Below the pieces are notes generated by a model. That model was not told where the DNA came from. It searched no databases and worked only from the letters and a program-made list of their open reading frames with translations. Below, piece by piece: positions 3,910 through 51,437 of a stretch of DNA of 64,000 nt. Within the stretch, counting starts at the first letter, position 1; each line of letters begins with the position of its first letter. The stretch covers positions 9,744,001 through 9,808,000 of the forward strand of contig NC_090723.1 of the NCBI RefSeq assembly GCF_040954835.1. Direction: 5' to 3'. The position numbers and the translations under genes are program-made. The DNA is from Lepisosteus oculatus. Taxonomy: Eukaryota > Chordata > Actinopteri > Semionotiformes > Lepisosteidae.

Positions 3910-4026
3910 CGATGAACTTCTGAGGCATGGAGCTCTTCCTCTTGGCCACGTTGCTCGCCAGTCGGTCCAGTACTAGAGCTCTCTCTGTTCCCATCTGTGT
4001 TCTGGGAGCCTTGGTGTCTTCAGACT
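3910..4026 (-). CDS. ikzf3: IKZF3 exon 7, linker with nuclear-localisation-type motif
   Basis: The exon is 117 nt, with a gaaacag acceptor and an ATCG|GTAAGT donor. It encodes [20 protein letters not shown] followed by [20 protein letters not shown]. The second half is one of the most conserved non-finger motifs of the Ikaros family, and MGTERALVL parallels the MGSERALVL of mammalian Aiolos. The AKRKSS basic stretch is the likely nuclear-localisation and phosphorylation area (inference). Confidence 0.96.
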
Positions 4027-7000
4027 CTGTTTCAGACAATCTGGATGTCAGTTACTTCTGCTGAGATATTTGGCGAATATGTCATTAATCTGACCACTTC
4101 TCAAGGCTGCAGAAATGCAACCGGATTTCTCTTTGCTTTTCCTTTTTTTTTAGGATTAACGGCTCCACGATAAGTGTGCTAGAAAAAAAAAACTGCTTGT
4201 TTCTGTAGCTAGGAGGAAGTTGATCGGCGACAACTGACGTAACTCCGAATTTTGCCAGTGGGTGAGAGGCACAGTTGTGGCCAGCGTGGAAGCAGAGAGT
4301 GAGCGAGAGAGACAGTGAGAGCAAGAGAGACAGAGAGAGAGAGACATCCTGTGGTACCTGGAGCCTCTGATGGGGGACCCAGCCAGTGCTGAGCCTGCTG
4401 TGTCTGCAGAGGAGGAACTCGCAGAGCAAGACAGGCTCTGGATGGTTGTGTGCAGAGGCAGCAGGCTGACACCCTGCCTGGCAGCACTTATAGCAGCCCC
4501 ACTGACACCTAATACAAATTCTACTGTGGTGTACCATACAGAAAAGAAAAGAGAGAAGAGTAGTAACACACAAAAGAGCCTTGTGTGCTTAAGCTTAAGA
4601 GAGGAGCAAACTGTGGAAAAATAAGATGAATGCATGTCGAAATGAAACTGCAGAACACAGCGAACTGTACAAAAGGCCAGATCTGGGGAACAAGATCTGT
4701 GTCCAGCTCAGTAAATATTTCAACAACACCGGACCCCAGTACTGAAAAATAAATACTCCCAATATTCTTCATTTTGAAAACTTTCCTGCTCTGTGTACAC
4801 CTGCACTTCCTCACTTCTGGTCTAAAAATCAAGCTTCTGCATGCAGGTCTGCATCGGTCACAAGGTCTGCAAGGCAGTGCTGCCTCTCCCACACTGCTGT
4901 GTCCCTCTCATCCTGCCTGTGCTCCAAGGCCCCTGGGCCTCTCCATAACCTCAAGTCAAGCACACAGCTGTGAACGAAACAGGCCATGCCGATACACCGA
5001 TCTACTGACCCCAATGTGCAAACCCTCCTTCCGGTCCCCAGCTGCCTCGTCTATCCTGCTTGCGAAGTGAAAAGGACTCTAGAGATGCCCCTCTGCCCCA
5101 CCCCAGCGAAAAAATAAAGCCAGTTATTCCCCAGGTTTCCAGCCTTCCTCCACAGTGACAGAGCCATGTTACTGAACATTCTGTCCCTCTTCTCTAACTT
5201 CTCTAACCCAGACTGGAACTGGACTTAGATGTCATAAGGTACAAGATAAATGAAAGTAAAACAAAACAGAAAACTTTAAATAAGCCTTCTTTGATTAGCA
5301 AATTACTGGAGAAGGAAACCACAAGCAGACCATAGCCGCAGTATGTGCAGGTCTCTCCACACAAGAATTCTTATTTACTTTAACCCTATTTTTTACGTTA
5401 AAAAATAAAAACCAACCAAAAACCAGACCTGCATCCTGACCAGCGTTCTCCCAGCACGCCGCTGTGCGGAATATACTCCCACAGGGATGGTGGAGTGAGC
5501 AACATCCTGGACTTTGCAAGCGTTCAAAAGATGCCATAAGGAATTAACTCTTTTAAATGCGCAAATAAGACGTTATTAAAGTCAATCCCAGACAGTACTT
5601 CTTTTAGTTATTATGTATAACCTTTTATATATAACTCCTTTTATGTATAGCTCCTTTCTGCAATTGTTTCTGCTTTTCTTCAGTACACTCTTCTCTTTTA
5701 CACCAGACTCTCCGCGCGACGCGACCTCACTGTCAATCTGCCTTGCAGGCTGTGTGGAGGCAGCTGGCACTGTTGTGAGTGAGGCAGCTCTGATCGTGTG
5801 ACCCTCTCCTCCCGAGAAAAACAGTCACATACTGAATTTTGTTGTAATACTTGCAATGAAGACTTCCTTGAGCTTCCTGTGTCCTCCAGGTCAAGAGTTT
5901 GGGAATCTGTTTGGAAGGTGTTTACCATGGTAGATTGCTGCATCAAGTAAAAGAAAAACTGACTGATTGATCTTGGGGGGAGGACTGGAGAAGACATGCA
6001 GGTTATTTTTCCCCTTGAGTGAAGCATGACAAACCCACTGAAAAAGGAAGTGTCTGCATTCTCTGCGTTCTTACCGAACACAGCGAGCCTAATGAAAATG
6101 AGCAACGGATGATGAGGTGGCGAAGGGCGTGGGGTAGGGGGGGGATTGGGAAGGTCAATTTAGATGAAACCACAGTTGCTGAGTATAAAGAACAGAAAAG
6201 AGGCAATGCTTCCTGTGTCAGCTCTCATGTGGTTGAAAAGGGATGGAGCGAGGAGCGCGGAGGTGAGGTGTTGTGCAACTGGAGAGCTTTATCTGATAGA
6301 GCGATCCGAAGCTTGGGGACTTCTGTCAGCCGCCCTGCACATTAGAAGCCTGCGCCCGGAGACTGGGAGACTGCAGTGCTCAAGTGCTGCTTCCTTTAAG
6401 AACCCTCTATAAGTGTTTATTGATGCCCGCAAGATAACAAAGGAGACCATTTGACATCACTTCCTGGCACATTGCATCACCTCAGCACCACTAGTTCCAG
6501 AGCACAATGAACAGGCAAATACAGGCTTTGTTCCTCAAGCTGAGCATCCCTCTGTAAAGACGCTCAACACCCCTGTCTGCTCGGACTGTTTGTGCTAGTG
6601 AGGCATACAGTACGTAACATTAAACTACTCAAAACACACAACATCCGGAGCGACAGTTTTCTGCCCAACTCTCCCAACACCAAAATCTTGACCTACATTA
6701 AATCAAACAAGGCTTTCAGTTACATACGAGGCCGTACCCATGGCCTACATCGAACACAGCTCCCCAATACTACACAGATCAAGCAACACCCTCAATGAAG
6801 CACAGAGATCTGACCCCATTGCACACAGGTGAGGGCCCCTCCAGAGCCTGACATTTGGAAAACCTGGAATGATCAGTACGTCCTGCATTGGCAACGTAGG
6901 AAACCAGTGCTTTCCAACACTGTTATCAAATCCCTGAACGGCTGCAACAGACATCTCCCTCTATCACAAAAATCTCTGAGGACCAAGAGCTGTCACTGCT

Positions 7001-10000
7001 AACCTGAGCTTGGAAGGTAACTACTACTGTGTTACTGTACCTGCCAGACATGGCCACTCCGTTCCCTGAACTAAGCATACTGTATGTATCAACACACTTC
7101 CAGAAGACTTGGGAAATGTTCCAATATTAGTAAATAAATACTCTCTACACTTTCTGTTTCCCCCAAAAAACCCAGAAAACATTCATTATTTAATCATATA
7201 TACTGTATATATTGTTTTACCTTTTGTAGCTACAGTGATGCCTTACATCCCATATATATCTGAATGTATAATGTTAGTAATCTTCATTTTGTTCTACTAT
7301 CTACATGCAGAACATCTCAAAACACCCAGATAGAAAAGAAAAAACAAACCGACAGAAGTGTAACACAGCTGCAAATAAACACTGCTCAAGATAAAAACAA
7401 ACAGTACAATACATCAAACCAAACCTCGATGAAACAGCAAGATATGAAAATGAGTTTTACAGTTGTTGTTTAAAAACATCCCAATTTAGACATTTCAGTG
7501 CCTGTGGAAAAGAGTGTGCTCCAATGAAATGTAACTACATACACAGAAGCAATAATCTGTACAGTTCATAGCTTCAGTCACAGACAGTATTGGCATTGTC
7601 CATCTCCAGCAAAGGTATTCATTATTATTAGTAAAAATGACCTTAATCTCTTCTATGTTTATGCTTGGGGCACTATCTGATTTCCGAGAAGGTGGTAATT
7701 AAGATGCTTATTAAGGTGTATATTATAAGATGCAGGGTGTTATGTACAAATAGAGGGGTTATGAATATAGAAATAATAAATATCTTGAAACGGGTTAATC
7801 GGGTCTGCTGCTCTGAAATCAGTATCTATTGAGGACCTGCATTTGTGTTTTGTTTTTTTAAAAACCACAGCTTAAGCTTTAAAACACAAAGCATCAAGTA
7901 AAAGCAAAGGTCTGCTTCTGAGTGCCAGTGTTGCATGTCGTAATCTTTGCAAAAGAGAAAGGCTTTTCACTCGTTTTTTTCCACTGTCTTAACATGGTTT
8001 CATAAAGTTCGCTGGAATTGATTTGGAGCACAAATAAATAGCGGAGACCCACACAGCTTCCTTGCAAGCCCCCTTTCCCAGAGCACCCTCTGTGAAAACT
8101 AGTGCTCAGACAACCACCGCAGAAGGGCCGAAACTTCATTTAGTCTCGGACCACTCTCTGCCAGGCTTGAGCCCGCTGAAGCTACAGCACTGTGTTGGTG
8201 TTATAAACCAATGCAAAGGGCCATCATAGCTCCTGTGGAAAAAAAGGTAAAGACTGGGGTCCAAGACAAACTCGAAACACTCTGCAGTTGCACAAGCCTC
8301 CTGCCACAGATTGTAGATGGGATAGTGTTGTTCAATGTGTCCCTGACACTACGCAGCTCAATTTAGTGTTTTTCGGAAACTGAATTTCATACCACGTGCC
8401 TGCCTGAGACTTTTCCACTGATCAGAACTTACGAAATCAGTAAACGTCCTCCTAAACATGAGCTTTCTGCAGAAAGAAAGCTCACAAACCTCTGAATTTC
8501 ACAGCAGTTGGCAAAATAGGTCAAACAGACAAAATGCGAGTTCTGAACACAGGGTGATGGGAATTGAGTGAAGTCAACTGCCTATTATGCATATAATCTG
8601 TACGAAGCGGTTATCTATAGATTTGATGACATGAATTTGCCATCCCACAGTCTATAACAAGGCGTTGAGTGGTTTTTACTAACATACTTTACAACGTAAA
8701 ATTCTGCTGTTCTATAGTTTCTTCGTCTGGAGAAGACATGCACCTGTGTTAGGAGAATCATGCATGCAAGCAAAGTATTTATCAATCTTTTTTCTGAGCA
8801 TATTTTGTAACACAGCCTCGCCCCCAAAAAACTCCGTATTAAGTTTAAAGACCCTTCAGCTGTAGTCAATATTTTCCACTACTCTTAGGCCTAAGGCACA
8901 TTATTATAATAGGAAAAACACTTGCCAAAAAAAACAAAAGGGGAGTGAAATGTTTCCTGACTCTTAACAGCAGTTTAAATCTTTGAAGGCCGGTCTTTAA
9001 GGATGCTTCCATCCTTGTTCTGGGCTCAAAACCTATAGCCCTGCCAGCGGCTCACTGGGCACCGCCCTGAGAGGGGCAGGCCCAGCTCGTGACCCTGCTT
9101 GCGCTTTGTCCTTGGGGTGAGACGCAGGCTGTACGGCGACGGACTCGCCCTCTTTGGAAGCAAAACGGGCGGAGTGACGGGCGCGCGGTCAGTGGCCGTA
9201 CCTCCTTCGCTGTGGCCCTTGCTCTGGATGTACACGTGGCACCTCTCCTTGTGCTCCTCCAGGGAGCTGCGCTGCTTGTAGCTCCTCCCACAGTAGTTGC
9301 ACTTGTACGGCTTCTCCACTGCAAAACCAATCCAACAACCAACCAGACAAGTTAATAATCCCACACTGAAAACACAGAAAGTGACAGTAATTCACAGCGC
9401 CTGCTGTTATATACGTAGACCATCTGTCTTGAATACATCTGTTAAGAAAAACACAGCTGTTATATCATAATTTGAATGAACTGGTCAGCAACACTACAGT
9501 TCGATGTTCTTTCTTTGGAAAGGATGTGCCTAAGACCTATTCAAAGTATCACATACAGTACCATATTGTACTATTTAATGACTATTACCAGTCAAATCCC
9601 TGCCATGGACTTTCTGCTGTGTAAAAAGGTTTTAATCCAGGACAGGTCTGACTAAGCAGAGCTTTCCTGCTTCCTACTAGTCTGACTCAAGATAGTCCTT
9701 ATGTGAAGATTCGTTGCGATTTGTACAAACTGGCTAACATCAGTCGATTTCATCAGTTTTGTCTTTTTGTAGCAGTGTATTGCAACACTTGTTTTCTTTT
9801 TTGCACTTTCACAATGTGAATCATTTGATTGGCACATTATGGAAAACAACATGCTGTTAGTAAAAACATTAATCAACTCCCCAGCCTTTGTAAGATATAT
9901 ACATGGTATAGATTTTCTTCTTTCCAATTTCCACTTGAGCCTGGTTTGGGTCTTTAAAATACAATAAGCTGTAGGTGTTAAAAAGTGCCAGACTTCACAC

Positions 10001-13000
10001 TCAGGTAAGGATAAAAAGTACAAGGGTACATGTTCCTTTACATGATATTTTCAAAATCCTGATTATATTACATTTTTCAAAAATGATATATTTTAAACAT
10101 TATAAAGGCATATCTTACTCTTAAAAACAAAATGTATTCTTAAAACTTTGAGAGAAAATGGAAAACTTGGGTGGGATAGACATTGAATTCAAAATGCGGC
10201 TGAAACACAGGGTTCAACAAAATATATTTGTTAAAAACAAAAAAATAAAGAGAGCTGAAGATGAGTAAGACTCCACCCTTAGGAGAGCTAAGGGCATGGC
10301 TTTCCTTCCAATGCTGGAGATAATGACGATGCACTTAAAAAAGCTGTTTGTATTGTAACGTGTGATGTATAATCTGACTTGTGATAAGTCAAGTTTGCCG
10401 TACCTGCCCCCTCTGCTCACAGATGAGTCACCGAGTCAGGTTATGTGGTGTGAAAAGATGTGGTTCTCTGTGACATAACGACACCAGACAGCAATCACTG
10501 CGACCATGCTGCCGCTGTCCACACACGAGAGGGCAGGTGAGTGGCTACCAGGAGTCCTCTCCAGCTTCGGCCGGGCCGGGGGCTAGGATTGCCGGCCGCA
10601 CCACTCACCGATTCACACTTACAGGCACACTTGCACCAGTGAGCACGTTTCACACCGTAGTCACAGGTTTCTCATTGACGAGCGCGATCACAAGTACTGA
10701 TACCGGCAAGTTTCTTGCATCGGGAATAAAAAAAAATAAGTATCACTTCTCTGAAATGATACAAATGCTGATGGATCTGAGATAAGAAGAGAATGAAATG
10801 CTCCAAAAAAATCAGCTGAGGTTTTAACTGGATTACCATTGAAGTTTTGAAATGAATACGTCTCGGTCATGGAGTCATGCATCAGAGTCTTGAAACAAAC
10901 GTGTGTTGGCAAGAGCTGATGCCTCACTGCTCCAGGATCCTGAGCTCTGCTCTGGCCTCAGGCGTCTGTCTCTCTCGCACGTTTTCCCCATGATCACATG
11001 GGTTTTCACCAGGTGCTCTGGTTTCATCCCACCTTCGCTCGCCTATGCTGTTCGTCACTTCCGTCCCGCTGTGGACTGGCCTCCCGTCAAGGGCGAGAGC
11101 CACCCTCTGCTCTCTGGCCCAGTTCACACCTTGTGCTTCCAGGAGACAAGATGCTGTAACCCTGAACAGTGGAAGCACAGCTTTCAGGTACCACATGGAT
11201 GGACCTGCTCCTGCTAGACATGGTCCTTCAAAGCAATGCTGAGTTCTCAAGTACCCATAGACAAGGTTTAATCACATTGCACAGATGGCATCTTTAAAGT
11301 TAGGAGATCTGCTGGATCAGTTTTAGAACTAGCTTTTGGGAAAGCATTTCAGGTTTTTTACCAAGATTAACATGCTTTGCTCCACAATTCTATTTTAATT
11401 ATTTCCATTTCAACCACTGCTTCTCTAGGACAGGTGTGGGTGGTGGCAACGTTACCACTGGGCACAAGACTGGCCCACCCTGGTCATGGGAGAGAGGTGG
11501 TCAGCAGCACATACTGCCTCATAGATCCAGGGTCCAGTGCCCAGTTCTGGGGTGGGGCGCCATGCTCTTCCTATGTTTGCTTGGGTTTTCACCAGGCATT
11601 CCCCCCTCCTCTCAAAAACATTCCATTTCGTGTTGACTAGCTACTCTGATATTTTCCTTTCTACTGGTGGTGGGGTTCAGATATTTCATGTTTGGTGTCC
11701 TGTGTCTCTAACTGGAAGTCTGTTCCCAGTACTACCAGTCAGAAGGGGGCACAGCCTAGGTGATAAGATGCACAAGTTGCACAGATTTCTCTCCTCTGCA
11801 GCCCTTCTGATTCCTCTGATGCTCAGCAGTAGGTCTCCTCCCACATGGGGAAAATTAGATTACTCTGCCAGTCTGGTCAACAGAGACCCAGGCTGAGCTC
11901 AGTAGAAAAATCCTGACAGACACCATTGTGCTGCTGGTGGAACTCTCCTTGCTCCAGAAGGTGATTCTGCACATGAGCAGAAAGCAAGTCAAGATAATGT
12001 TTAAAGAATGGAGCAACATAAAGCAGAGAAAGATACTGCTACGAATACTGCACCATCATGGACAGTACTGAGACAGGTTGTTGAAGGCAGATCCCAGTAA
12101 TAACCCCAAGAAAATGGATTGAATGTATAATTGGTAGTTGCATCAATAAATTGGGTTGAAAATTTCATCCATTTTCTTTTCCTATATTATATGTGTTGCC
12201 TCCAAGTACTCAGGACTCCCTACTGTTGCAGGACCTTTGCAAACCTCTTGTTTTCTTCACTCCCCCTTCCTTCTCGGTCACTCGTGTGGGTGAATCTCAG
12301 AATCTGAGTCTATTACCGGCAGCCAGTCTTCACAGATAAAAAAACAACACCTAAAGCTGGTGAAGCCCAACTTCATCTTGTGTTTTTGGCCATTCGAGGG
12401 CACATCAGATGGAACCACACTTGCAGAATCAGACAAACAACACACCAGCTACACCAGTGTTGGGTTTTGGTCCTTGTTTTTGCGACCACGAAGTGCATAG
12501 CGAAACCTGAGACATTAGTGAAGGGGAAATGTTGCTTTAAGAACAATAAAAACAGAACCTTTAGCTATATTGTAACTTTGAATTTTTTACGTGTTTTTCA
12601 AAGAATCAACCTTGAGGACATTCTGTTTTTTAAGGAAGCCTGTTTTATGACATCAGCTATGTGTCATAGTCCATAGATGAAAATGAATGAAATACAGGAA
12701 CAAGATGAAAGAAAATTCTATACTTTTATCTTAAGGAAAGAAAGCTCAGAATATGACTACCCGGTAGAAGAGACTATCTTTTTCTTAACTGATTACAAAT
12801 GCATGATAAAATCTTGCGATAAAAATGTCTTCAGCACTGCAACTCATACTGAAAATATTGGTGGAATCACAGTTCTCTGCAGATACATGTAGATGGGGAT
12901 AGAAGTACTAGCAGCCACCCAAGAAAAGAGTAAAAAGATCAAAGCCATGATTTTTAAAAGCACTGTCTGATATTATGTAAGTCAACCACTAAGACTACAC

Positions 13001-16000
13001 TAACACAGTTTCCAGCCACACAGCAAAAAACATCTTCTGACCTGACTCTGAGCAGAGATGGCTAACTGAATTTTGAGATACAATCTGCATACACACCTTT
13101 GTCTAGACAGGTACATTTCATAAATACTTTCCTGGTATTTTCTCTTACTTTTATGCTTTCCAAAGATTAACTGTTATGTTTTTATTGTGTTCCAGGCAAA
13201 AGCCTATATTGGTACAAAGGAGATCTTAACTTAAAAAATAAGACCTGCACACTTCTTAACTGATGGGAAGTTGATGGACAAAGAGAAGTCAATACATGTC
13301 TTCAACATAAAACTTCCGAGAAAAGCTGCTACCATTCTTCTGCTTTTATGAACTCTGTCCTTAAGTGTCAGAGAAGAACAGCTGCAAGATCGTATCTGCA
13401 ACAAAAGAGTGATAGTTTTATCATCTGCTACTGTAGCTACAGTAGATATTATACTTTAAGCCTCTCACTGCAGCTTCTCAAAGATAATCATCAAAATTTG
13501 ACTGGTCAAGTTCTCAAGATTCTGCAGGTTCTTGAAGTCGAGAGGCCTGTGTGGTAATACAAGTTCATTCTTTATTTGTTAGCAGTTGGACATGTATTAT
13601 CAACTCTCCCTCTAACCTCACAGCAGAAAAACTGTCCGTTAAACAAAGACCATGTGGACTGTGACTTTTACAATAAACTGCGATTTTAACTTCAATAATA
13701 AGCAGAAGACACAGCGGCACCAAACCACAGCGCAATGCAAAATCACATTCTCACATTTTTTAAATAACTTATCTGAGGTAACTTGCAACATACAATTAGG
13801 GCTCTGAAGAACCTGAAACCAGAATTCACTCATGTAAAACTCTATTCATGATTGAACCTGCAAATGTTTTAAAGAAACTCCTTCTGAAAGTATCAATGCA
13901 ATCAACAAATGGATATACATGACGTCTGAGTCCCAGAAAGCAAACAGGAAAATGAGTGGTGGGCTGAAAGGAGAAGGAGAAGGAGAAGGACGCTCATGCA
14001 CACCTGGAGAGGCACCACAGCTACAGCCCTGGGTGTTTCTGAGTCGCACACTGATGTAGGGGCCTGCCAGGGGGCGGCGGACCGGGCCCAGCTGGGCGGG
14101 CCCCGGGCGTGTGCGGGTGGAGGTGTCGGGCGCGCGGGGCGGCGGGGGAGGGTTACCTGAGTGCGTGCGGAGGTGCCCGCTCAAGGCGTCCCGCCGACGG
14201 CAGGCGTAGCTGCACATGTGACACTTGAAGGGCTTCTCCCCGGAGTGCAGCTTGATGTGGCGCAGAAGGTTCCCCTTCTGCGTGAAGGAGGCGCCGCACT
14301 GCGTGCAGTGGAACGGGCGCTCCCCTGAAACGCCAGACACGGGACGCGGGTCAGCCGCGGCGGTGCGTGCTGGGCGCTCGAGCACCGCGCTGGCGCTTCT
14401 TTAGTCTTACAGGGTGCCCGATCCCCGTTTTCACATCCTTGCAAATGTTCACCACAGCAAATTTATGAAACAAAATATTCTATTCACATCATTGTTTACC
14501 TTGTTTCTGCAAATGGATGCCCATGTTTTTAAAGCTTACAGTAAATCAGTAAAAAACAGTAAATCATGGTACAGTAAATCATTCCTTAGAAACATCTGCT
14601 CTGGTAGATCATGGTGTTCCTAGGTGCTACAGACGGTAACGCAAACCACGGTGAAAGGAGATCCATAGTAAACGATGGAGTGAACTAAGAGACTCCAGTC
14701 TGGTTCAAGCACTACGGAGAAGCTGCGCCTCCTCCACTGTTACTGTGAGTAGGGGCTCTGTACAGCGGGGGAGCTGAGGGTCAGAACCAGTCTGCTCTGT
14801 GGAGACAGGCTGAGCTCACAGAACACTGCGGAGGAAAGCAGCCCTGGGGTTCACTCTTGCGCTCGGACAGGGGGGAGGCAAGCAGGGCCAGAGAGCCGCC
14901 GCAGACAGGGACGACTGCTCGGGCGCTTACCAGTGTGACTGCGCTTGTGCACCAGCAGCACGTTGAGGCTGACGCAGGCCAGGCCGCAGATGTCGCAGCT
15001 CAGCTTCCCGCTGCCGGCCCGCGAGCCCAGGTAGGAGCCGGCCGAACCGTCCGCGGGCGAGTTCTCGTACCGCGCGTAATCCAGGGGGGAGAGATACTGG
15101 TCCGCGTCCGCCTCCTCGCGGCACTCCCCCCCTTCCTCGCTCCTGACGTACTCCTCCTCCCGCTCGTTCTTCACCTGGACCTCAACTGGGGAGGGGGCAA
15201 ACGACAACAACACAAGGACACATGAAAAGAGGAAGCGAGAAGGAGGAGGAAACACACACACACACACACACAGCAGTTACGCCCTGGCACTTTCCAGGAG
15301 GTACAGGGAGTTGCATTCCCTGCCGAGAGCCGAGGGGACCAGCGGCACGGGCCCACCGCGCCTCTGGCGGTTACAGGCACCGTGTCGGGGACAGGGCCGG
15401 CCCCGGGAGGTGTGAACGCAACCAGAAGCGGCTGCTCGGCGTCTCTACAGGGCCGTGACAACCGCAGCGGCTGGCCAGAAACCGTCGCACTTCAACCTCT
15501 CTGTTGCTTACTCTGCAACACCTCGGAGTCGCAAGTGTGAGAAAAGCTTTCCGCGCAGCTTTAATGGAAAATTAGTCAGGGGACCACATTGATATAGTGC
15601 TTTGTCATCCCCAGCAAGAACTCCTGGGTGTTTCATTAATTTCTGCTTCTGGCTGTTTTCTCTCTCCTGCCCTCAGCGGCGCTGCGCCTCGAGGCATGTG
15701 CTGCAGGAGGCGTTCCTGCCCTGCGCACACACCCGTCCGCACGCGCGGGACACAGCCCTCACCGCACTGCTTCTGCTCTTGCCTGACACGCCCTGGCACA
15801 CACACGGCAATTAGAAAGACTGTTACTGAGACAAGAAAAAAAATGGCCAGGGATTTTTTTCTTTTGGCTTTGTCTTTTTTTATAGCTCGCAGACTTGTAT
15901 GCAGAGATATCAACGCAGACCGCACAGACCCGGTGGTTTCAAGGAGGTGTCAACTGAGTCGCTAACAAAGAAAATGGGCACATTCTGCACATGGAGCTTC

Positions 16001-16394: not shown

Positions 16395-16441
<47 letters not shown>

Positions 16442-22400: not shown

Positions 22401-25400
22401 GAACTGCTTGGAGCTAAACTGAAATATAAAAGCATGAGCACACTGTCTCCCTGTTGATTTCCCAATAAAATTCAAAACACTGCTGCTCACCTTTAAAGGC
22501 TTGAACAGCCTGGCACCAGACTACATCAGTGATCTGCTAACACTTGCCCTGGCTCTTGGACTCTTCAGACTTCTTTTGGTTTCCTGTATGAGGCACCGAA
22601 CCCCTGGGGGACCATGTTCTGCTGCTCCAGGACTATAGGTTGATCTCCCACCCCCAGAGCGGATCTTGCAAATCAGTCTGCATTTTTAAAATTCAATTTA
22701 ACACACTTCTTATTAATTTGGCTCAGTTTATTGTACTAGATGTTTCTAATGTTTTTGCTATTTCTTCCTTTTATAAGTATATAAATTTTATAAGTGCTTT
22801 CAGAGATGATGCATTTTGAAAGGCGCTCTATAAAATAAAGGATTACCAAGTTGTCTGCACTGTGTCACATAATGATCCTTTAATCATGTGTGAGACTGAA
22901 TAGATCAATCACAGCAGCTAAGGATTCTGCAGTGAAAGAAAAGATCAATCACAGCGCCCTGTAATCAGACATCCCCTCTTGGGGAGCTGCTGCCTCGACA
23001 GTCTGCTGCAGAGCAGGCTGGGAGCAGGCCCTGGCTCCCAGCCTGCAGTCTCAGCACCAACCCACAGGAAGCATGAGAGACAGCGAAAGGAAACCCTGGG
23101 ACTAGTGTGAAAAATAAGTGTTTTTTTGTCATTTTCCCATCCGGCTGTGCTGTGATCATGAGCCTGTGGAGGCACGCTGCTGCAGGTATTTTTGAACATG
23201 GCTGCGGAAACCAGCTCAGAGTGCACACAGACCCCATTAAAAGCAGGCCATCTGCACTGATCCAGCCCGAGCAGCCCCAGTACCCCCACCAGACACTCCA
23301 GTGAACAGGACTCTGAATGCCTAGCAGGCTGGTCCAGTTCCATGTTTTGCGGGAAGCTTTAGTCTTTTATTTAAGACCGTCCACTACAAGGTAAATGGTT
23401 CTCATCAGCTCCGTTAGTTTTGCACAAACAAAGCAAACGTGACTATTTAACACACTGCTGTTGTGCTTCACCAGCACTGTTTGCTATTTGTCAGGGCTCA
23501 TGGTTCATGATGCCTGGAAAGAGTCAAATCGCTGTGCAATGGGAAAACTCAGTACTGCAGAAAAGTACAGCGGCGAGATACCAAGGGGTCCTGTATTTCA
23601 CCCAGAAGAGTGGTCGGTGCCCTGGTGAATGTGACCTAAGACATTCCAGAGGGGTCCTTACCTGCCAATTATCCAATTTTACAGACCAACTGTAGCAGCC
23701 AATGCACTAGAGGTGCACCAGAGGTGCTTTAGGAGACTGAACACGGTTTATTGCTAGCCTTTGTTTAGGGTAATAAATTAAACATCAATGACTCAGCATA
23801 CATCCACAAATTTCTTTTGAGGCAAAGAACCTTTCTTTGATTTAGAAAATAATTGCTTTTTTCATTTAAGACAGAACAATCAGTAAGTCGATTCATCTCT
23901 CACAATCTGTTTTTTTTCTGCGCCCAGGTGTGCAAGAGGTGTCTTCACCAGCAACTGTGAACACTACGTATTCCACAGAGCGTTTTTCAGAGGTCTTTTA
24001 TTTTCATATCAGAAGAGTCTGCATGACTTGCCCCAACTGATAACACAGCTGTGACAGGATTATTATCTGCTCAGGAATCCCCCAGAGACTCCGGGGAGCA
24101 GGTTTGTGCTGAGAGCCTGCGTGTCTACACACCGCTTTAGGTACCACACCTGGGTCAGCGTCTGCATCAGGGGCTGAGGGGTCAGCGCAGTCGCCCTCCG
24201 TCTCTTGCTCTGAGGTCTCGCACTCCTCGTGCTCCTCTTGGGTGCGCTGGATAGACAAATCTGTGCCAACTGTCGGACTGCCTGCTGGAACATGAACCAC
24301 AATTAGCTTTATCCATCCGCCAAATGGGAAAAAGAAAGCCAAATGGTCAAACCACAGTGGTATTTTAAAATGGTGCTGCTGATAGTGCACTGGAATGTAG
24401 TTAAGAGGAGTCACTAATGTTTCTTACCAATACTATTCCGTTTGAGGTCTTATGATATTTAATGTGTGTTGCACACAGTTAATTAACCAACTTTGTGAAC
24501 TCTGGTCTGCAGTCTCGTTGGAAGATCAGTGAGCCATGCTGCTGCACAGATACAGGGATACAGGGAGATGAAGAGTGGGTTTGCTGCTTGGATCTACACT
24601 GGTGCTGATGAGGAAGGTTAGTAGACCGCGGCCAAGATGCCCTCCTAGAGTACTTACAATGAAGAGGACACATTAAAAGAGCTTGCAGAAACACTCTAAA
24701 CTATGAAATCTGACTGGGTACCTGAGAGAATATCTGAACGCCTCCAGACATTCCTCTCAGTTGTGAAGTCATTGTAGCTACCCGTGCAGGTCAAATTAGG
24801 GTGCTCCAATGAGATGAGATCAGTTTAAATATAGAACAAATGTATTGAAAGAAAGAAGGGTGAAAGGCTATACAGCTCCCATTTTAAATGTCACTGTGGT
24901 TTAGCTTGGCTAACACAGAGCAGAAGGCAAGAAAGATTAAAAGAAATCATAGTAAGACCCAACACAAGCCAGGGTAAAAAAACAGAAAACTTTGAACTGA
25001 GCAGAGAAAACTTCCTTCAGGAAATGTTACTATATTAAACCCAAGGTATAAGTTAATAAATTAGTTTTGTAGTGTGAAGAAAGCATGTGGTTATCGTGTT
25101 TTGTATGTAGAATTTCTCCTACTCTGCTCCGCATTCAATTGTGGGCATTTGTATTATTTCAGACATCAACAGGAGGTACCTAGAAATGGTTGTTTTGGAG
25201 ATTCCCATGTAAAAATCTACAATCCAGTATGGTCGGACTGCGATTTTAAAAAATCTTATTAATGTGAAAAAGACAGGTTTAAGCAACAGTTAACTTTAAT
25301 TAAATTACACTATAATTTAAATACTTAAGCTAGTTATTTTATATTTTATACAAAGGTATAGAAGTAAAAGTCCTGATATCGAATTGCAAAAACAACCTTT

Positions 25401-33640: not shown

Positions 33641-36600
33641 TCTGGGTTTAACAGTGCTGTCAGTCAGACTCCCAGTGCAGAGCAGTTTGATCCACTCCAG
33701 GTGTGACAGTGCTGTCAGACTCCCAGTGCAGAGCAGTTTGATCCATTCCAGGTGTGACAGTGCTGTCAGTCACTCCCAGTGCGCAGCAGTCTGATCTGCT
33801 CCAGGTGTGACAGTGCTCCCAGTCAGACTCCCAGTGCGTAGCAGTCTGATCCGCTCCAGGTGTGACGGTGCTCCCAGTCAGACTCCCAGTGCGCAGCAGT
33901 CTGATCCGCTCCAGGTGTGACAGTGCTGTCAGACTCCTAGTGCGCAGCAGTCTGATCCGCTCCAGGTGTGACAGCGCTGTCAGACTCCCAGTGCGCAGCA
34001 GTTTGATCCACTCCAGGTGTGACAGTGCTGTCAGTCACTCCCAGTGCGCAGCAGTCTGATCTGCTCCAGGTGTGACAGTGCTCCCAGTCAGACTCCCAGT
34101 GCGCAGCAGTCTGATCCGCTCCAGGTGTGACGGTGCTCCCAGTCAGACTCCCAGTGCGCAGCAGTCTGATCCGCTCCAGGTGTGACAGTGCTGTCAGACT
34201 CCTAGTGCGCAGCAGTCTGATCCGCTCCAGGTGTGACAGCGCTGTCAGTCACTCCCAGTGCGCAGCAGTCTGATCTGCTCCGCTCCAGGTGTGACAGTGC
34301 TCCCAGTCAGACTCCCAGTGCGTAGCAGTCTGATCCGCTCCAGGTGTGACAGTGCTGTCAGTCACTCCCAGTGCACAGCAGTCTGATCCACTCCAGGTGT
34401 GACAGTGCTCCCAGTCAGACTCCCAGTGCGCAGCAGTCTGATCCACTCCAGGTGTGACAGTGCTGTCAGTCAGACTCCCAGTGCGCAGCAGTCTGATCCA
34501 CTCCAGGTGTGACAGTGCTGTCAGACTCCCAGTGCGCAGCAGTCTGATCCGCTCCAGGTGTGACAGTGCTGTCAGACTCCTAGTGCGCAGCAGTCTGATC
34601 CGCTCCAGGTGTGACAGCGCTGTCTGTCACTCCCAGTGCGCAGCAGTCTGATCTGCTCCGCTCCAGGTGTGACAGTGCTCCCAGTCAGACTCCCAGTGCG
34701 TAGCAGTCTGATCCGCTCCAGGTGTGACAGTGCTGTCAGTCACTCCCAGTGCACAGCAGTCTGATCCACTCCAGGTGTGACAGTGCTCCCAGTCAGACTC
34801 CCAGTGCGTAGCAGTCTGATCCGCTTTAGGTGTGACAGTGCTGTCAGTCACTCCCAGTGCGCAGCAGTCTGATCCGCTCCAGGTGTGACAGTGCTCCCAG
34901 TCAGACTCCCAGTGCGTAGCAGTCTGATCCGCTCCAGGTGTGACAGTGCTGTCAGTCACTTCCAGTGCACAGCAGTCTCATCCACTCCAGGTGTGACAGT
35001 GCTGTCAGTCAGACTCCCAGTGCGCAGCAGTCTGATCCACTCCAGGTGTGACAGTGCTGTCAGACTCCCAGTGCGCAGCAGTCTGATCTGCTCCAGGTGT
35101 GACAGTGCTCCCAGTCAGACTCCCAGTGCGCAGCAGTCTGATCCGCTCCAGGTGTGACAGTGCTGTCAGACTCCTAGTGCGCAGCAGTCTGATCCGCTCC
35201 AGGTGTGACAGCACTGTCAGTCACTCCCAGTGCGCAGCAGTCTGATCTGCTCCGCTCCAGGTGTGACAGTGCTCCCAGTCAGACTCCCAGTGCGTAACAG
35301 TCTGATCCGCTCCAGGTGTGACAGTGCTATCAGTCACTTCCAGTGCACAGCAGTCTCATCCACTCCAGGTGTGACAGTGCTGTCAGTCAGACTCCCAGTG
35401 CGTAGCAGTCTGATCCGCTCCAGGTGTGACAGTGCTGTCAGTCACTCCTATTGCGCAGCAGTCTGATCCGCTCCAGGTGTGACAGTGCTGTCAGTCAGAC
35501 TCCCAGTGCGCAGCAGTCTGATCCGCTCCAGGTGTGACAGTGCTGTCAGTCAGACTCCCAGTGCGCAGCAGTCTGATCTGCTCCAGGTGTGACAATGCTT
35601 CCAGTCAGACTCCCAGTGCACAGCAGTCTGATCCGCTCCAGATGTGACAGTGCTGTCAGACTCCCAGTGCGCAGCAGTCTGATCTGCTCCAGGTGTGACA
35701 GTGCTCCCAGTCAGACTCCCAGTGCGCAGCAGTCTGATCCGCTCCAGGTGTGACAGTGCTGTCAGACTCCTAGTGCGCAGCAGTCTGATCCGCTCCAGGT
35801 GTGACAGCACTGTCAGTCACTCCCAGTGCGCAGCAGTCTGATCTGCTCCGCTCCAGGTGTGACAGTGCTCCCAGTCAGACTCCCAGTACGTAGCAGTCTG
35901 ATCCGCTCCAGGTGTGACAGTGCTGTCAGTCACTTCCAGTGCACAGCAGTGTCATCCACTCCAGGTGTGACAGTGCTGTCAGTCAGACTCCCAGTGCGTA
36001 GCAGTCTGATCCGCTCCAGGTGTGACAGTGCTGTCAGTCACTCCTATTGCGCAGCAGTCTGATCCGCTCCAGGTGTGACAGTGCTGTCAGTCAGACTCCC
36101 AGTGCACAGCAGTCTGATCCGCTCCAGGTGTGACAGTGCTGTCAGTCAGACACCCAGTGCGCAGCAGTCTGATCCACTCCAGGTGTGACAGTGCTGTCAG
36201 TCAGACTCCCAGTGCGCAGCAGTCTGATCTGCTCCAGGTGTGACAGTGCTGCCAGTCAGACTCCCAGTGTGCAGCAGTCTGATCCGCTCCAGGTGTGACA
36301 GTGCTGTCAGACTCCCAGTGCGCAGCAGTCTGATCCGCTCCAGGTGTGACGGTGCTGTCAGACTCCCAGTGCGCAGCAGTCTGATCCACTCCAGGTGTGA
36401 TGGTGCTCCCAGTCAGACACCCAGTGCGCAGCAGTCTGATCCACTCCAGGTGTGACAGTGCTGTCAGTCAGACTCCCAGTGCGCAGCAGTCTGATCCGCT
36501 CCAGGTGTGACAGTGCTGCCAGTCAGACTCCCAGTGCGCAGCAGTCTGATCCACTCCAGGTGTGACGGTGCTGTCAGACTCCCAGTGCGCAGCAGTCTGA

Positions 36601-36812
36601 TCCACTCCAGGTGTGATGGTGCTCCCAGTCAGACACCCAGTGCGCAGCAGTCTGATCCACTCCAGGTGTGACAGTGCTGTCAGTCAGACTCCCAGTGCGC
36701 AGCAGTCTGATCCGCTCCAGGTGTGACAGTGCTCCCAGTCAGACTCCCAGTGTGCAGTAGTCTGATCCGCTCCAGGTGAGACAGTGCAGCAGTCTGATCC
36801 GCTCCAGGTGGG
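33641..36812. repeat. 3.2-kb minisatellite, ~55-bp unit
   Basis: Roughly 60 tandem copies of a unit made of the blocks GTGTGACAGTGCT, CCCAGTCAGACTCCCAGTG, CGCAGCAGTCTGATCC and GCTCCAG. The full unit is 55 bp. Common variants lose 4-5 bases (GTCAGACTCC or GTCAGTCACTCC forms) or gain a second GCTCC. A 596-bp segment containing several variant units is itself repeated in tandem (about 34,960-35,555 and 35,556-36,150). All reading frames crossing it are by-products of the repeat. Confidence 0.97.
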
Positions 36813-37318: not shown

Positions 37319-43651
<6,333 letters not shown>

Positions 43652-43796: not shown

Positions 43797-43859
43797 GCCC
43801 TTGACCTGCTCCACCTGTTTCCGAGATCTTTTGTTTGTTTGTTTGTTTGTTTTGCAAGC

Positions 43860-45281: not shown

Positions 45282-45289
45282 TATAAATA
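45282..45289 (+). promoter_or_regulatory. TATA box of the ARL gene
   Basis: TATAAATA in a GC-rich setting, 277 bases before the ATG. Transcription would start near 45312, giving a 5' UTR of about 250 nt with no intron needed. Confidence 0.8.
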
Positions 45290-45565
45290 TGAGAGCCAGG
45301 CAGGCAGGCGGGACAGCACAGATTCTCTCAGCCCTGGAGAGGCAGAGACCAAGAGAGCCCGCGAGCCTTTCTGATCCTCCTGCAAGCGAGACGCAGCGAC
45401 TCTGCCGGCAACTTCTTCAGATCATCGGCTGTTCCAAGTATATTCTCGCGCCCAGAGGACGCCGGAGCTGAGCTGCTTGGGCTGACCGAGCTTTCCCCTC
45501 TCTTCCTGCCTGCTCCGGCACCAGATTAGAGAACAGCAAGAGCGAGCAGCGAGCCGGGAGGCAGC

Positions 45566-46198
45566 ATGGGCCTGATCTTCAGCCAGCTCTACCAGGCGCT
45601 GCCCGGCCTGCAGGCTCGGATCCTGCTGCTGGGGCTGGACGGCGCGGGGAAGACCACCGTCCTGTACAAGCTGAAGCTGAACGAGGCCGTCTGCACCATC
45701 CCCACCATCGGCTTCAACGTGGAGCCGGTGGAGCCGGTGCGCGGCGTGTCCTTCACGGTGTGGGACGCGGGCGGCCAGCAGCAGATCCGGGCGCTGTGGC
45801 GGCACTACTACAGGGGCGCCCAGGGGCTGCTGTTCGTGGTGGACTCCGTGGACGGCCCGCGCCTCGCCGAGGCCCGCGAGGAGCTGGAGGCCATCCTGGC
45901 CCACGCGGAGATGAGCGGGGTGCCCTTCGTGGTGCTGGCCAACAAGCAGGACCTGCCGGGGGCCCGGGGCCCCGCCCGGCTGGCGGACGCCCTGGGGCTG
46001 GACAAGCGGAGCGGGCAGGACTGGCACGTGCAGGCCTGCTGCGCCACGAGCGGCGAGGGCCTGACGGGGGGGGCCCTGGCGAGGGCGTGCGTCTCCAGAC
46101 CGCTGCCTTGGCTCACCCGCGGGATCCCTGTGGCCCTGTGTCGCAGCGTCGCGGGATGTGAGCCCCACAATTCAATTCATTCGATTTATCTGTCGTGA
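45566..46198 (+). CDS. ARF/ARL-family small GTPase with altered C-terminus
   Basis: A single-exon 210-residue frame. Seen: Gly2 for N-myristoylation ([10 protein letters not shown]), P-loop GLDGAGKTT (23-31), switch 1 [10 protein letters not shown] (44-53), switch 2 WDAGGQQ (66-72), NKQD (126-129) and CATS (159-162). These cover all guanine-nucleotide motifs, so nucleotide binding is expected. NVEP and [11 protein letters not shown] point to the ARL11/ARL14 branch rather than classical ARFs. After GEGLT (167) the usual EGLDWL helix is absent. Instead, about 43 unrelated residues follow, beginning [19 protein letters not shown] and ending NSIHSIYLS, in a stretch that looks repeat-derived. A run of eight Gs (46066-46073) lies at this point, but neither alternative frame restores the family end. 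ARFs normally act in membrane traffic. Function here is inferred. Confidence 0.88.
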
Positions 46199-46782
46199 TC
46201 CTTCCACGGGTGCATAGTATAGTGACAAGTGTTTCTCATTAGTCTCTCAGGTGCAGTATATAAATAGAAGACAAGACAATAGACTGTAACACAATAACTG
46301 TGTGGTAACAACCAGGACAAAGCAGAGAGAGGTGTTCTTCTCAGCACCCGTTTGAGTTATAAAGTCTGTTTAAAGGACGCAGTCTTGTTCACCACGGCTT
46401 GTGACTTTGCCTTCTTCAGTTTGACGGTTGAGACGGGTCACCGGTGGCCACTCATGTTATATCTGAGGCTGGGCGTGGTCTCAAGCCTGTACGAGATCAA
46501 GAGGAAACTCTGGGCACCTGGCACCTCATCTCGCCTTCTCCTCTTTCCTTCGTCTGGGCACTGTTTCTGGGGTTTCGTCCCTCAGCAGGACAAGCATTCC
46601 TGTTTTCGTGCTCCGTAACGCAACTTTGATGTCAGTGCGTGTTCATGCACTTTAATGTACAAAAATGGGTTTTTTAAATATATATTTTTTTCAATTTAAA
46701 GAATGCCTTTTTTTTTCTAAAAAAGAATGTAAATCTGTCAGGTATCTGCTCTGATTGTATTCTTCCTGACTGTAAAAATCGA

Positions 46783-46788
46783 AATAAA
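46783..46788 (+). terminator. Poly(A) signal of the ARL gene
   Basis: AATAAA 585 bases after the stop, following an AT-rich 3' UTR. Together with the TATA box it outlines a single-exon transcript of about 1.5 kb. Confidence 0.75.
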
Positions 46789-46809
46789 CAGAAGTTCTCA
46801 ATCTGGTGT

Positions 46810-49800
46810 CGGTTTGTCGCTCCCACAGCCGAGAGTTGCAGAACTGGGCTGAGCCGCCCCGCCTGTGATCCACGTGTCAGAGAGAGACGGGCCGACAGTT
46901 ATCACAGGCGAGCAGCAGGGCCACTGTTCCTCAGCCAGTGTCCGCACCTGAGTACTCTCGAGTGGACAAGTCCACAGAGCTCATTCAGGCTTCCTGTTAA
47001 TTCTCTGGGCCACAGCACCAGCTCTGTATGAATGAGTTTGCCTCACACATGGCCCCGGCGTCCCTGGATAAGCCTGATCTCTGCAGGTGTATGAGGTAGA
47101 GCTGGGCTTGTTCAGCATTTGCACAGACCAGCCCTTGAATTCCAGGAGCACAGATCGGTTTGCTTCTGTGTGCCTGTAGAGGGCGCCAAGATCCCACACA
47201 TTTCTGCTTTTCTTTTGGCACAGTTCAGTCACAGCCTGCTGACTGCCTGCTGGACACTGTCTCAGAGGGGGGGTTTGACACAAAACCAGAAGACACATCA
47301 GCAGTGATCGTTTTGCTTTAGTTATCAGTGGAAGGCACTGAAAGTGCACAGTACATTAACACAACAGTGAGAGGATTGGCTTAGACAGAAGACAACAGTG
47401 AAATAAATGAATGAATGAATATCCACTTTACTCATTTCCTGCTTAAGGTGGAACAAGCCTCCTGTGTATCTAAGTACACTGCTGGGAAGCTCTGATCTTG
47501 CAGGGCCACGGCACAGGGTTTGCAGCTGGTCTTGAATTCAGCCAGCAGCTCACAGCTGGTAGCCCACTGAAGCTCAGCAGGTTTGGGCCTGGTCAGTACC
47601 AGGAGACTCCTGGGAAAGCTGAGGTTGCTGCTGGAGGAGGTGTAAGTGGGGCCAGCAGGGGGTGCTCACCATGTGGTCTGTGTTGATCCTAATGCCCCAG
47701 TATAGTGACGGGGACACTATACTGTAAAAAGGCACCGTCCTTCGGATTAGACGTAGAACTGGGGTCCTGACTCTCTGTGGTCATTAACAATCCCAGGGCA
47801 TTTCTCAAAAAGAGTAGGGATGTTACCCTGGCCTCCTGGCCAAATTTCCCCCTGGCCTTTACCCATCATGGCCTCCTAATAACCCCCATTCCTGAACTGT
47901 CTTCATCACTCTGCTCTCCTCCCCACTGAGAGCTGGTGTGTGGGGAGCGTTCTGGCGCACTATGGCTGCCGCTGCATCATCCAGGTGGGGCTGCACACTG
48001 GTGGTGGTGGAGGGGATCCCCATTATCTGTAAAGTGCTTTGAGTGGAGAGTCTAGAAAAGTGCTATATAAGTGTAAGGGCATTATTATGATACCTGGAAA
48101 GTGGCTACATTTGTTCAATTCAGTAAATTAAGGGGTTCAGTTAGGTAAATAAAAACCCAGGGCGAAGGAAAACCAGGAGTGGCCGCTGCTTCTGAGGACC
48201 TGTGGGTCGCTGTTGTCTGAAACTGGGTGGAATCATAGAGATCTGCCATTAGATGGCGATAATGTACTATCAGTAGCAGGACTGGCCGCTCTCTGGATTG
48301 CTCACAATAAAGTGAGTGGGGCCATGTAAAAGATCTGACCAACATTTCACGTGTCCAGAAACTGATTGCTCTTCCACAAGAAATACGAAAGCATGTCACC
48401 AGTGTACATGTAAATTATAGTGCTGCTGTGATAGAGAAGCATGCCGTCAGCTGCTAGAGCTCTCGCTGTGAAGTGATGATTGGAGGTCAGTTTTGGTAGA
48501 TCCTGGCCAGGTCACTAGAGAGGTAGAAAGAGCCATCTGTCTTTTCTCCATCTTCTATACAACAAAGAGGGAGACAGGATGACTTCAGCACCGACCTTCT
48601 GCATGAATATCTGTGTCTCCCTCTGTGATGCATCAGGAACATCTTCCTGAACCTTCTGAGTGTTTGGGGCTGCTCAGTTTTATGTTCAGTGTTAAGCTGC
48701 ACACATATAGCCCTTTTGGCTTCTTGCTGGAATATGAAAGGTTTTTTTTCCAGATTAAAAAATTCTTTCAAAAAATACGCCTCACAACTCCCTACTGTCC
48801 ATTCCCCTCTCTCACAGTCCAGCAGGGTCCAGCACTCCACCAGTCCCAAGTCTGATACCTCAGGTGCAGCTTTCTCCTAATTTTTTTGTCAAGCGGAGCT
48901 TCAAAACGAAACAGTTGAGCTCCCAGGAGGCCTGTTTTTTAAACACGGACAGTTTTGAGACAACATACAAGTTACAAGCCAGCGTTCGGATCAAGCCCCT
49001 GGTGCCTCTGGAGAGTGGCTCCCCAGCGGGATTGTGGGAAGGAGCGGAGCTGGGTGCAGAGCCCAGTCCCTGACCGTGTTGTTGTCACGGCCGCCACAGA
49101 GAGAGCACCGCCCCTCCCAGAGGCCTTCCTGTGCCACAGGGTTCCCATGGAAACACTTCCCTTGCCTGCTCTGTGTTGGAATGGGACTCAGGACTGGTCA
49201 GGCTCTCTCTCTGGCCTGTGGCTGATTGACAGGGCTGTTCCGTCCAGCTGCTGCTTCTGAGGGTTAAAGCTGGGCGCCACCAAGCACCCAGTCTGTTCTG
49301 TTCTGTTCTGTTCTCTGTCCTGTAGGCCAGGGGTCCCCACGGTGCTAGTGGCCTCCCTTATACTGATGGCAAAGCAAAGCAGTTTCCTTATAAAAAACAT
49401 GACAAATTGAAAAACGAATCAATAGCTCATGAGGAAAGTAAAAAATGTGACATGACAGACTAGTCTTTGGCCTCGCCCCTTCCTAGCCTGTGCAGTGCCC
49501 TGGCCAGTGCGTGCTCACAGTTCCCAGCAGAGCGACACCTGCTGGCAGCCTGTGCACACTGCGGCTGAGGGACGGGAGGGCAGTGTGGGCGGGCCAGGCC
49601 CAGTTCGAGCCAGGCCTTGTGGGAATCAGGCAGCGATCAGCTGCGCAGGCCAGCGGAGAGCCTGCAGTGCTCAGAAGGAGTACTGTCCGCCGCCAGCACA
49701 CAGACTCTGGGCACATCCTGCAGCGGTTGTGGGTGTGACAGCCCCCACCCTTCCTCCCAGCTGCGCCACCTGTCCGAGCTCACCATGTCTTGCCTGCTGG

Positions 49801-50410
49801 TGCAGCTCGAGGACAATGTTTCACAATTGCTCTGCCCTTGCCTGTAACAGCCGATAATGGTGTCCTTCAGCTTGGGGAAGGCTGTCACGGTCGACGTGTC
49901 CCAGTTTACTGGCGGACAGGACTGGACACTTGAGACCCCAAAAGACCTGGTTAGTCCATCCTCTGTCACACCGCAGCCAGTGGTGGCAGGAGCACCGCGT
50001 GAGAAAGGAGCAGTGGGATGATTCAGTGAGAGACCTGGGAGAACTGGGAGAGCTGGGAGCACACCGGACTGCGTCCCTCTCAGTCCAGCTGGAGAGCTCT
50101 GCACATTCCTGCTGCCTGCGTGCCAGGCTGCCTGAGCGACTGAGCCCCAGAACTGCGAGCAGGGATACTGCCTGTTTTGTAATTAGCACAATAACTGCTG
50201 AACTCCTTGTGTGTGCAGGGGTGGGTGGGACTAGGGAGGTGGTTTCCAGAGGGGGGAGGAGGGGTTACTGGGGTAGGGGGAGGGGAGGTGGTGTTGGGGA
50301 GGGGGGGGGTTTGCCTGCTAGTTCTTCCCAGTGTGAGAGCTCCTCCACCGGGCTGCCCTCCCCCTCCAATCCCTGGAGCTGCCTGGAGGATGGAGGAGGC
50401 GTGTCTACAG
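46810..50410. other. Intergenic, ARL gene to IGFBP4
   Basis: 3.6 kb with no recognised gene. It holds a near full-length 5S-type SINE (47.5-48.1 kb), an (AATG)n run at about 47402-47420 and a (TTCTG)n run at about 49288-49315. A G-rich stretch (50,215-50,310) lies just before the IGFBP4 TATA box and could be promoter-proximal. Confidence 0.65.
47545..48092 (+). mobile_element. 5S rRNA-derived SINE with L2-type tail
   Basis: The head GAAGCTCAGCAGGTTTGGGC, CTGGTCAGTACCAGGAGACT and CCTGGGAAAGCTGAGGTTGC matches the internal-promoter half of 5S rRNA (GAAGCTAAGCAGGGTCGGGC, CTGGTTAGTACTTGGATGGG). The body contains CATCATGGCCTCCTAATAAC and GCGTTCTGGCGCACTATGGC. The tail GTAAAGTGCTTTGAGTGGAG then AGTGCTATATAAGTGTAAGG ends in ATTATTATG. 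It is a SINE3-like 5S-SINE transcribed by RNA polymerase III, nearly complete. Confidence 0.8.
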
Positions 50411-50415
50411 GCCTG

Positions 50416-50421
50416 TATAAA
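50416..50421 (+). promoter_or_regulatory. igfbp4: TATA box of IGFBP4
   Basis: TATAAA in the context CCTGTATAAAGTCC, preceded by a GC-rich, G-tract region. The ATG is 677 bases further on, giving a long 5' UTR. Long leaders are also known for IGFBP family genes such as IGFBP5. Confidence 0.65.
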
Positions 50422-50878
50422 GTCCAAGGAGCTACTTCTGTGGAGCCATTCTAGAGTGCTTCCCTGTGCAGAGAGCGTGCGCACGAGAGAGAGAGAGACA
50501 GAGCAACAGGGAAAGGGCCTCCGCGCTGTTTCGTGCTATCAGTCATCAGCACCTGGGCCTCTGCAGATCCCCGCCTGGGTGGACTTTGTGCTGCCAAGCT
50601 GTGCTTCAGGGCGCTTTCCACTTTAAAGGGACCTGGGCGTCCGAGGAGATTTTCTTTCAGAAGCTAATGAACAGATCATTCTTTTAAAGGCAACTTTTTT
50701 TTAAAAAAAGCATTCAATGTCTACCTGTAAATTACCGGTCTGAACCAAAGCAAGCCCTCGCGTTCCGACGGAACGAGAATCCCCCCCTGGCAGGGAGCAG
50801 CTCCTCGCCCTCGGAAGAGCCCCTCGCAGAGGCACGCAGCCCGGAGGAGGGACCACCAGCCTCCTGCACCTGCCCCAG

Positions 50879-51060
50879 CTCAGGCTCCGGCTCCTGCTCC
50901 GGCTCCGGGTCTTACTCCTGCTCCAGCTCCAGGTCCCACTCCGGCTCCGACTCCGGCTCCGGGTCTTACTCCTGCTCCAGCTCCAGGTCCCACTCCGGCT
51001 CCGGCTCCTGCACCTGCCCCCAGCTCCAGTTCCCGCTTCCGGCCCCTGCACCTGCTCCGG
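50879..51060. repeat. TCC-rich 60-bp repeat in the IGFBP4 leader
   Basis: Imperfect hexamer-like GGCTCC / AGCTCC modules organised into a roughly 60-bp unit (GGGTCTTACTCCTGCTCCAG, then CTCCAGGTCCCACTCCGGCT), present about twice with flanking partial units. It lies between the TATA box and the start codon, so it would be transcribed in the 5' UTR. Confidence 0.85.
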
Positions 51061-51097
51061 CTCCTCGGCTAGGGGGGGGAGAGAGAGTCCGTTCCCC

Positions 51098-51437
51098 ATG
51101 GGGCGCGAGCCTCGGACCAGTGCCCTGTGGGCGGCGTCCGCGCTGCTGCTGGCGGCGCTGTGCCTGACGGAGGAGGCCATCCGCTGCCCGCCCTGCTCCG
51201 AGGAGAAGCTGGCGCGCTGCAGCCAGCCGGCCAACTGCGAGGAGACGGTGCGCGAGCCGGGCTGCGGCTGCTGCCCCACCTGCGCGCTGCCCAAGGGCGC
51301 CCCCTGCGGGGTGTACTCGCCCCGCTGCGGCTCCGGCCTGCGCTGCTACCCTCCCCGCGGCGTGGACAAGCCCCTGCACTCCCTGATGCACGGCCACGGC
51401 GTCTGCACAGACGAGCGGGAGGTGGAGCAGCTCATGG
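51098..51437 (+). CDS. igfbp4: IGFBP4 exon 1 (signal peptide and IGF-binding N-domain)
   Basis: 113 codons plus one base, ending at an ATGG|GTAAGG donor. A signal peptide ([16 protein letters not shown], about 8-24) is followed by [17 protein letters not shown], the family GCGCCPTC motif (55-62), and [20 protein letters not shown] followed by [15 protein letters not shown]. This aligns closely with IGFBP4 ([46 protein letters not shown]) and much less with IGFBP5 (PRQDEEKPLHALLHG). The domain binds IGF-I and IGF-II outside the cell. The exons for the linker and the thyroglobulin type-1 domain (CWCVD) were not found before the window end, so intron 1 exceeds 12.5 kb. The phase 1 exit is normal for IGFBP exon 1. 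Confidence 0.95.

Follow-up and report, generated by a model that had tools for sequence, protein, structure and literature searches.

A brorin-family gene between IKZF3 and IGFBP4 in the spotted gar, probably a third vertebrate brorin

The literature presents Brorin (VWC2) and Brorin-like (VWC2L) as Chordin-type BMP antagonists, secreted and neural (PMC5407822). Both are also listed as AMPA-receptor interactants about which very little is known (PMC6502786), and binding of VWC2L to CD36 has been observed (PMC9578707). The zebrafish brorin gene adjoins ikzf1 and fignl1 on chromosome 13 (PMC5407822) and, in the spotted gar, VWC2, C7orf72, IKZF1, and FIGNL1 are found together on LG11 (PMC5446266). 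In humans, a variant at 2q35 has been mapped to the vicinity of IKZF2, SPAG16, VWC2L, and ERBB4 (PMC12141474). Since, on the published maps, VWC2 lies by IKZF1 (zebrafish, mouse, and gar) and VWC2L by IKZF2 (human), the member still to be expected is a brorin gene beside IKZF3. A co-duplication of ERBB, IKZF (ZNFN1A), and IGFBP genes has been proposed for human chromosomes 2, 7, 12, and 17, with 7 and 17 the closest (PMC2235844). The locus described here resembles that paralogon of HOX-bearing chromosomes in the linkage of IKZF3 and IGFBP4, as on human 17q, but it adds a brorin gene between the two, a family not mentioned in the portions of that paper considered here (PMC2235844).

We analyzed a continuous stretch of 64,000 nucleotides of Lepisosteus oculatus (below, the window), in which exons were located by tblastn with working copies of human protein sequences, written out independently of database records, as queries; these copies are also the human references in the comparisons below. 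The initial annotation had placed an IKZF3-like gene, a VWC2/VWC2L-like gene, and IGFBP4 exon 1 within 47 kb, and this is confirmed by the tblastn matches, the Pfam domains, and the splice borders: a span of 47.5 kb holds the IKZF3-type exons, a whole brorin-family gene, and exon 1 of IGFBP4. The two limits given for the span (3910..51437) are indeed exon ends, position 3910 being followed by the GT donor of an IKZF3-type exon and position 51437 by GTAAGG in IGFBP4. The internal borders of the exons of these three genes are GT/AG. Pfam support above the curated cut-offs is present for the brorin domains, for IGFBP in the IGFBP4 exon, and for C2H2 fingers in the IKZF exons, and the tblastn and Pfam matches at the three genes are far beyond chance. 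Between the brorin gene and IGFBP4 lie two genes absent from the initial annotation, one of them C1QL-like and the other an ARF-like frame. At E up to 0.01, Pfam gives no domain in 10 long open frames elsewhere in the window, which also has no tRNA gene and, at gathering scores, no match in Rfam.

The brorin-family gene is complete, with three exons on the minus strand (40650..37319) encoding 262 amino acids. Exon 1 (40198..40650) runs from the start codon through a hydrophobic leader and the first cysteine-rich domain to EEFM in an open frame, with a GT donor in phase 0 (Pfam VWC2L_1st, 77.5 bits). Exon 2 (38496..38625), with AG and GT borders, contains the second cysteine-rich (VWC) domain, LSPCERC...CKN (VWC2L_2nd, 65.2 bits; VWC, 36.9 bits). 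Exon 3 (37319..37524) follows an AG acceptor and carries the C-terminal domain, minus two cysteines, and the stop codon (VWC2L_C, 68.6 bits). The three VWC2L domains occur in the order of the family, each against a Pfam cut-off of 27 bits, and the coding region is interrupted by two introns, of phases 0 and 1; two introns are also reported for the coding regions of zebrafish and mouse Brorin (PMC5407822). With human VWC2 as the query, tblastn finds the three exons of the window at E values of 1e-38, 8e-19, and 1e-11. The predicted leader, judged by eye, is a hydrophobic run of 17 residues that comes after 36 residues. In the PDB, there are no sequence relatives of the protein up to E = 1, and a single-sequence AlphaFold model (mean pLDDT 41.5) is too poor for testing cysteine pairing or the secretion signal. 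As expected for an animal gene, pattern matches in prokaryote genomes (92) and in viral contigs (7) gave no confirmed relative.

The core of the protein keeps 24 of the 26 cysteine columns common to human VWC2 and VWC2L. Both BMP-type domains retain every shared cysteine, and the two that are missing belong to the C-terminal domain, where DEC is replaced by DAR and the last cysteine is absent. The paired loss suggests, as far as the alignment goes, that a disulphide of that domain has been lost. The tail is also longer than in the human proteins, with 26 residues after the last cysteine of the C-terminal domain. Because two cysteines are gone and the tail is longer, the third domain appears to have diverged, unlike the two BMP-type domains, which are intact. 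Such a loss and such an odd tail could be read as the marks of a decaying pseudogene copy. We regard decay as highly unlikely, given that the 262 codons contain no internal stop and no frameshift, that all four splice borders are GT/AG, that the other 24 cysteines are retained, and that the 5′ end is CpG-rich. The CpG-rich stretch (40000..41499) covers exon 1 together with the interval that separates the brorin and C1QL-like genes, with a GC content of 0.60–0.68 and a CpG observed/expected ratio of 0.90–0.91 (0.55 for the whole window); it is not unique, since 500-base blocks at 37.0–38.0, 43.0–43.5, 44.0–44.5, and 45.0–45.5 kb score 0.87–1.17.

The gene shares with VWC2 the three brorin domains, the two coding introns, an IKZF neighbor, and a C-terminal domain of the ...GTW.I..QA.C type. 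It shares with VWC2L the three domains, an IKZF neighbor, and the short N-terminal linker, the long linker of VWC2 being absent. The C-terminal domain has the longer form of VWC2 (a stretch of 14 residues, letters not shown) as opposed to ...HNGDWWKPAQC in VWC2L. Unlike either, it lacks the two C-terminal cysteines and lies by IKZF3, whereas VWC2 lies by IKZF1 and VWC2L by IKZF2. Three proteins were compared, that of the window and human VWC2 and VWC2L, both as working copies, with no outgroup. Core identity is 102/177 (57.6%) with VWC2 and 94/173 (54.3%) with VWC2L, against 108/173 (62.4%) between VWC2 and VWC2L. Of 34 sites where the window protein agrees with just one human protein, 20 are VWC2-like and 14 VWC2L-like (p = 0.39). 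Column bootstraps place it nearer to VWC2 than to VWC2L in 82%, which is not significant, and place VWC2 and VWC2L nearer to each other than the window protein is to VWC2 in only 86%. The mixture of VWC2 and VWC2L residues that had been noticed in the initial annotation is thus real, the protein being about equally distant from both. In a three-taxon WAG+G4 analysis, the branch of the window protein is the longest (0.46, vs. 0.23 for VWC2 and 0.35 for VWC2L).

Zebrafish and mouse Brorin are about 82% identical outside the N-terminal region (PMC5407822), so that a fish orthologue of VWC2 is expected to be far closer to its mammalian counterpart than this gene is. Its identity with human VWC2 falls well short of that level, and its neighbors are IKZF3 and IGFBP4, neither the IKZF1/FIGNL1 pair that adjoins VWC2 nor the IKZF2 that adjoins VWC2L. 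The gene could nevertheless be the species' genuine orthologue of VWC2L or of VWC2, moved beside IKZF3 by a rearrangement and with no third copy, and the short N-terminal linker is as in VWC2L. Against such a move are the identities of merely 54–58% to either protein, the absence of the short C-terminal form of VWC2L, and the fact that the gar is reported to retain VWC2 by IKZF1 (PMC5446266); we give it very little credence. A later, lineage-specific duplicate of VWC2 (from a teleost duplication or a segmental copy, for example), fast-evolving and settled beside IKZF3, is unlikely as well, if somewhat less so. The slight excess of VWC2-like sites, the VWC2-like C-terminal domain, and the longest of the three branches speak for such a copy; the branch length and the two lost cysteines, taken from the sequences, would also fit it. 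Identity with VWC2 is, however, lower than that between VWC2 and VWC2L, and it is far under the zebrafish–mouse value (binomial p 7e-14, a figure that ignores rate variation). The introns are kept, so the gene is not a retrocopy, and a copy inserted at random is unlikely to end up beside an IKZF gene: for assumed genomes of 0.7–1.5 Gb, it would fall within 25 kb of one of the four IKZF genes in about 2–5 cases in 10,000.

Four coding exons of the IKZF3-type gene are in the window, on the minus strand (15185..3910), all found by tblastn and with their borders checked. The first (14931..15185) encodes an acidic N-terminal region with zinc finger 1, the second (14157..14324) zinc fingers 2–3, the third (9202..9318) zinc finger 4, and the fourth (3910..4026) includes a stretch of 28 residues before the last donor, of which 27 are as in human IKZF3 (24 in IKZF1 and 14 each in IKZF2 and IKZF4). 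The first and fourth exons also gain support from a tree. The exon of fingers 2–3, taken alone, does not favor IKZF3: its best tblastn E values are 3e-31 with IKZF1 and 2e-30 with IKZF3 (human proteins), and it is slightly nearer to IKZF1 (50/55), IKZF2 (51/55), and IKZF4 (50/55) than to IKZF3 (48/55). Over the four exons, the identities are close, 140/216 (64.8%) with IKZF3 and 135/218 (61.9%) with IKZF1. Among the Ikaros-family chains in the PDB, Helios scores 173 bits, Ikaros 169, and a 58-residue Aiolos chain 105, a ranking that does not decide the paralogue because the chain lengths differ. Among the sites common to the window gene and exactly one paralogue, 17 of 27 are those of IKZF3, and an unrooted JTT+G4 tree of five sequences (218 spliced residues of the window and the working copies of human IKZF1–4) groups the gene with IKZF3, over IKZF1, IKZF2, and IKZF4, in 100% of 200 bootstraps. 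The gene is IKZF3, and the grouping with IKZF1 or IKZF2 that the initial annotation had named as contrary to its reading is not seen. With the human queries, no tblastn match to the upstream exons of IKZF3 or to its C-terminal exon (fingers 5–6) occurs in the window; the C-terminal exon presumably lies beyond the left edge. An open frame at 24004..24423 was considered as an upstream IKZF3 exon and dropped, having no domain and a translation unlike IKZF3.

At the other end, exon 1 of IGFBP4 (51098..51437, plus strand) contains the Pfam IGFBP domain and stops at the donor GTAAGG. Human IGFBP4 finds it by tblastn at E 9e-48. Its best match in the PDB is IGFBP4, with 146 bits vs. 88 for IGFBP5 and 83 for IGFBP3, a margin of about 58 bits that concerns exon 1 only; the assignment to IGFBP4 already made is clear from these scores. 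Exons 2–4 give no convincing tblastn match in the window and are presumably beyond its right edge.

With both flanking genes identified, the brorin gene of the window is a real, new member of the family in the expected place, a useful finding and not a startling one. It is probably a third vertebrate brorin, an ohnologue left by the two early whole-genome duplications on the IKZF3–IGFBP4 copy of an ERBB–IKZF–brorin–IGFBP block. The IKZF1 copy of the block would then carry VWC2, and the IKZF2 copy VWC2L. The brorin gene lies upstream of IKZF3 and in the same orientation, and human VWC2 and IKZF1 have, we assume, the same arrangement, with VWC2 upstream. No brorin gene is known on human 17q, and the third brorin may have been lost in the mammalian 17q lineage. 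The ohnologue origin and the independent branch had both been put forward in the initial annotation. The ohnologue origin, which we infer here, is favored by the identities of IKZF3 and IGFBP4, by the about equal distances to VWC2 and VWC2L, and by the published maps. The independence of the branch needs a narrower wording: the branch may be sister to VWC2, a position that the published ERBB, IKZF, and IGFBP trees would predict and towards which the sequence leans without significance, so that “independent” does not mean equidistant at the root.

No description of a third brorin was found among the literature titles and openings of abstracts that were listed, a search outside which most subscription papers fall. 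In genome annotations, the gene may carry an automatic “brorin-like” label. If it is an ohnologue, the third slot of the IKZF–brorin–IGFBP block is filled, which gives reconstructions of the two genome duplications in early vertebrates one more family of markers. Should the gene be common to several fish lineages, work based on two brorins has missed one member of the family, and studies of fish “Vwc2” should check which of three genes is concerned. The “Vwc2” enriched in the lateral line of the paddlefish is one example, the paralogue not being distinguishable from the account (PMC11936418).

By analogy with the family, the product is most likely a BMP-binding protein that neural cells secrete. 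The two chordin-like cysteine-rich domains would bind BMPs and so damp BMP signaling around those cells, and, like Brorin and Brorin-like, the protein may join AMPA-receptor complexes. The neighbor upstream, a C1QL-like gene, also belongs to a family of secreted neural proteins. That gene is complete on the plus strand (41493..43651), with two exons and a shortened collagen part. Exon 1 (41493..41954) is head-to-head with the brorin gene, and exon 2 (43469..43651) follows a CAG acceptor and ends with YLLYED and a stop; the spliced product has a C1q domain of 117.9 bits in Pfam. In that domain, 71 of 128 residues are identical to human C1QL1 and 73 of 128 to C1QL3, whereas 115 of 132 are identical between human C1QL1 and C1QL3 (all human sequences as working copies), and for this reason the gene looks like a separate, divergent branch of C1QL. 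As the two starts are head-to-head and 0.84 kb apart (gap 40651..41492) in the GC-rich stretch, the brorin and C1QL-like genes may have a bidirectional promoter in common.

A fuller picture would start from at least three brorins in early vertebrates, one for each of the IKZF1, IKZF2, and IKZF3 blocks. The third would survive in this lineage with a remodeled C-terminal domain and share a CpG-rich bidirectional promoter with the divergent C1QL-like gene, the two forming a pair of secreted neural proteins between IKZF3 and IGFBP4 that mammals have lost. Taken as a whole, this combination is tentative, its chances being a little short of even.

Farther along the plus strand, an ARF-like open reading frame (45566..46198) matches Pfam Arf with 191.7 bits; its best PDB match is ARF1, and 98 of 168 residues are as in ARF1 (working copy). 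Past GEGLTGG, where eight G stand in a row, its end is unlike that of ARFs; a frameshift, a sequencing error, an unseen intron, or a truncated copy are possible causes. Upstream of this frame, the segment 44430..44820 was judged by eye to be the 3′ end of a LINE-type element, of a kind that we take to be typical of fish. The GC content of the 64-kb window is about 44% in the IKZF3 part and climbs to 60% at 40–44 kb, a marked compositional step that would be in keeping with the patchy GC of gar genomes. Several minisatellites are present. Just downstream of the brorin gene, a 55-base unit is repeated about 58 times (33651..36794), and in brorin intron 1 about 39 copies of a 19-base unit (39408..40134) take up nearly half of the length. 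The intron of the C1QL-like gene contains another array (41993..42884), and two more follow IGFBP4 exon 1 on its downstream side (57335..57681 and 61104..61576).
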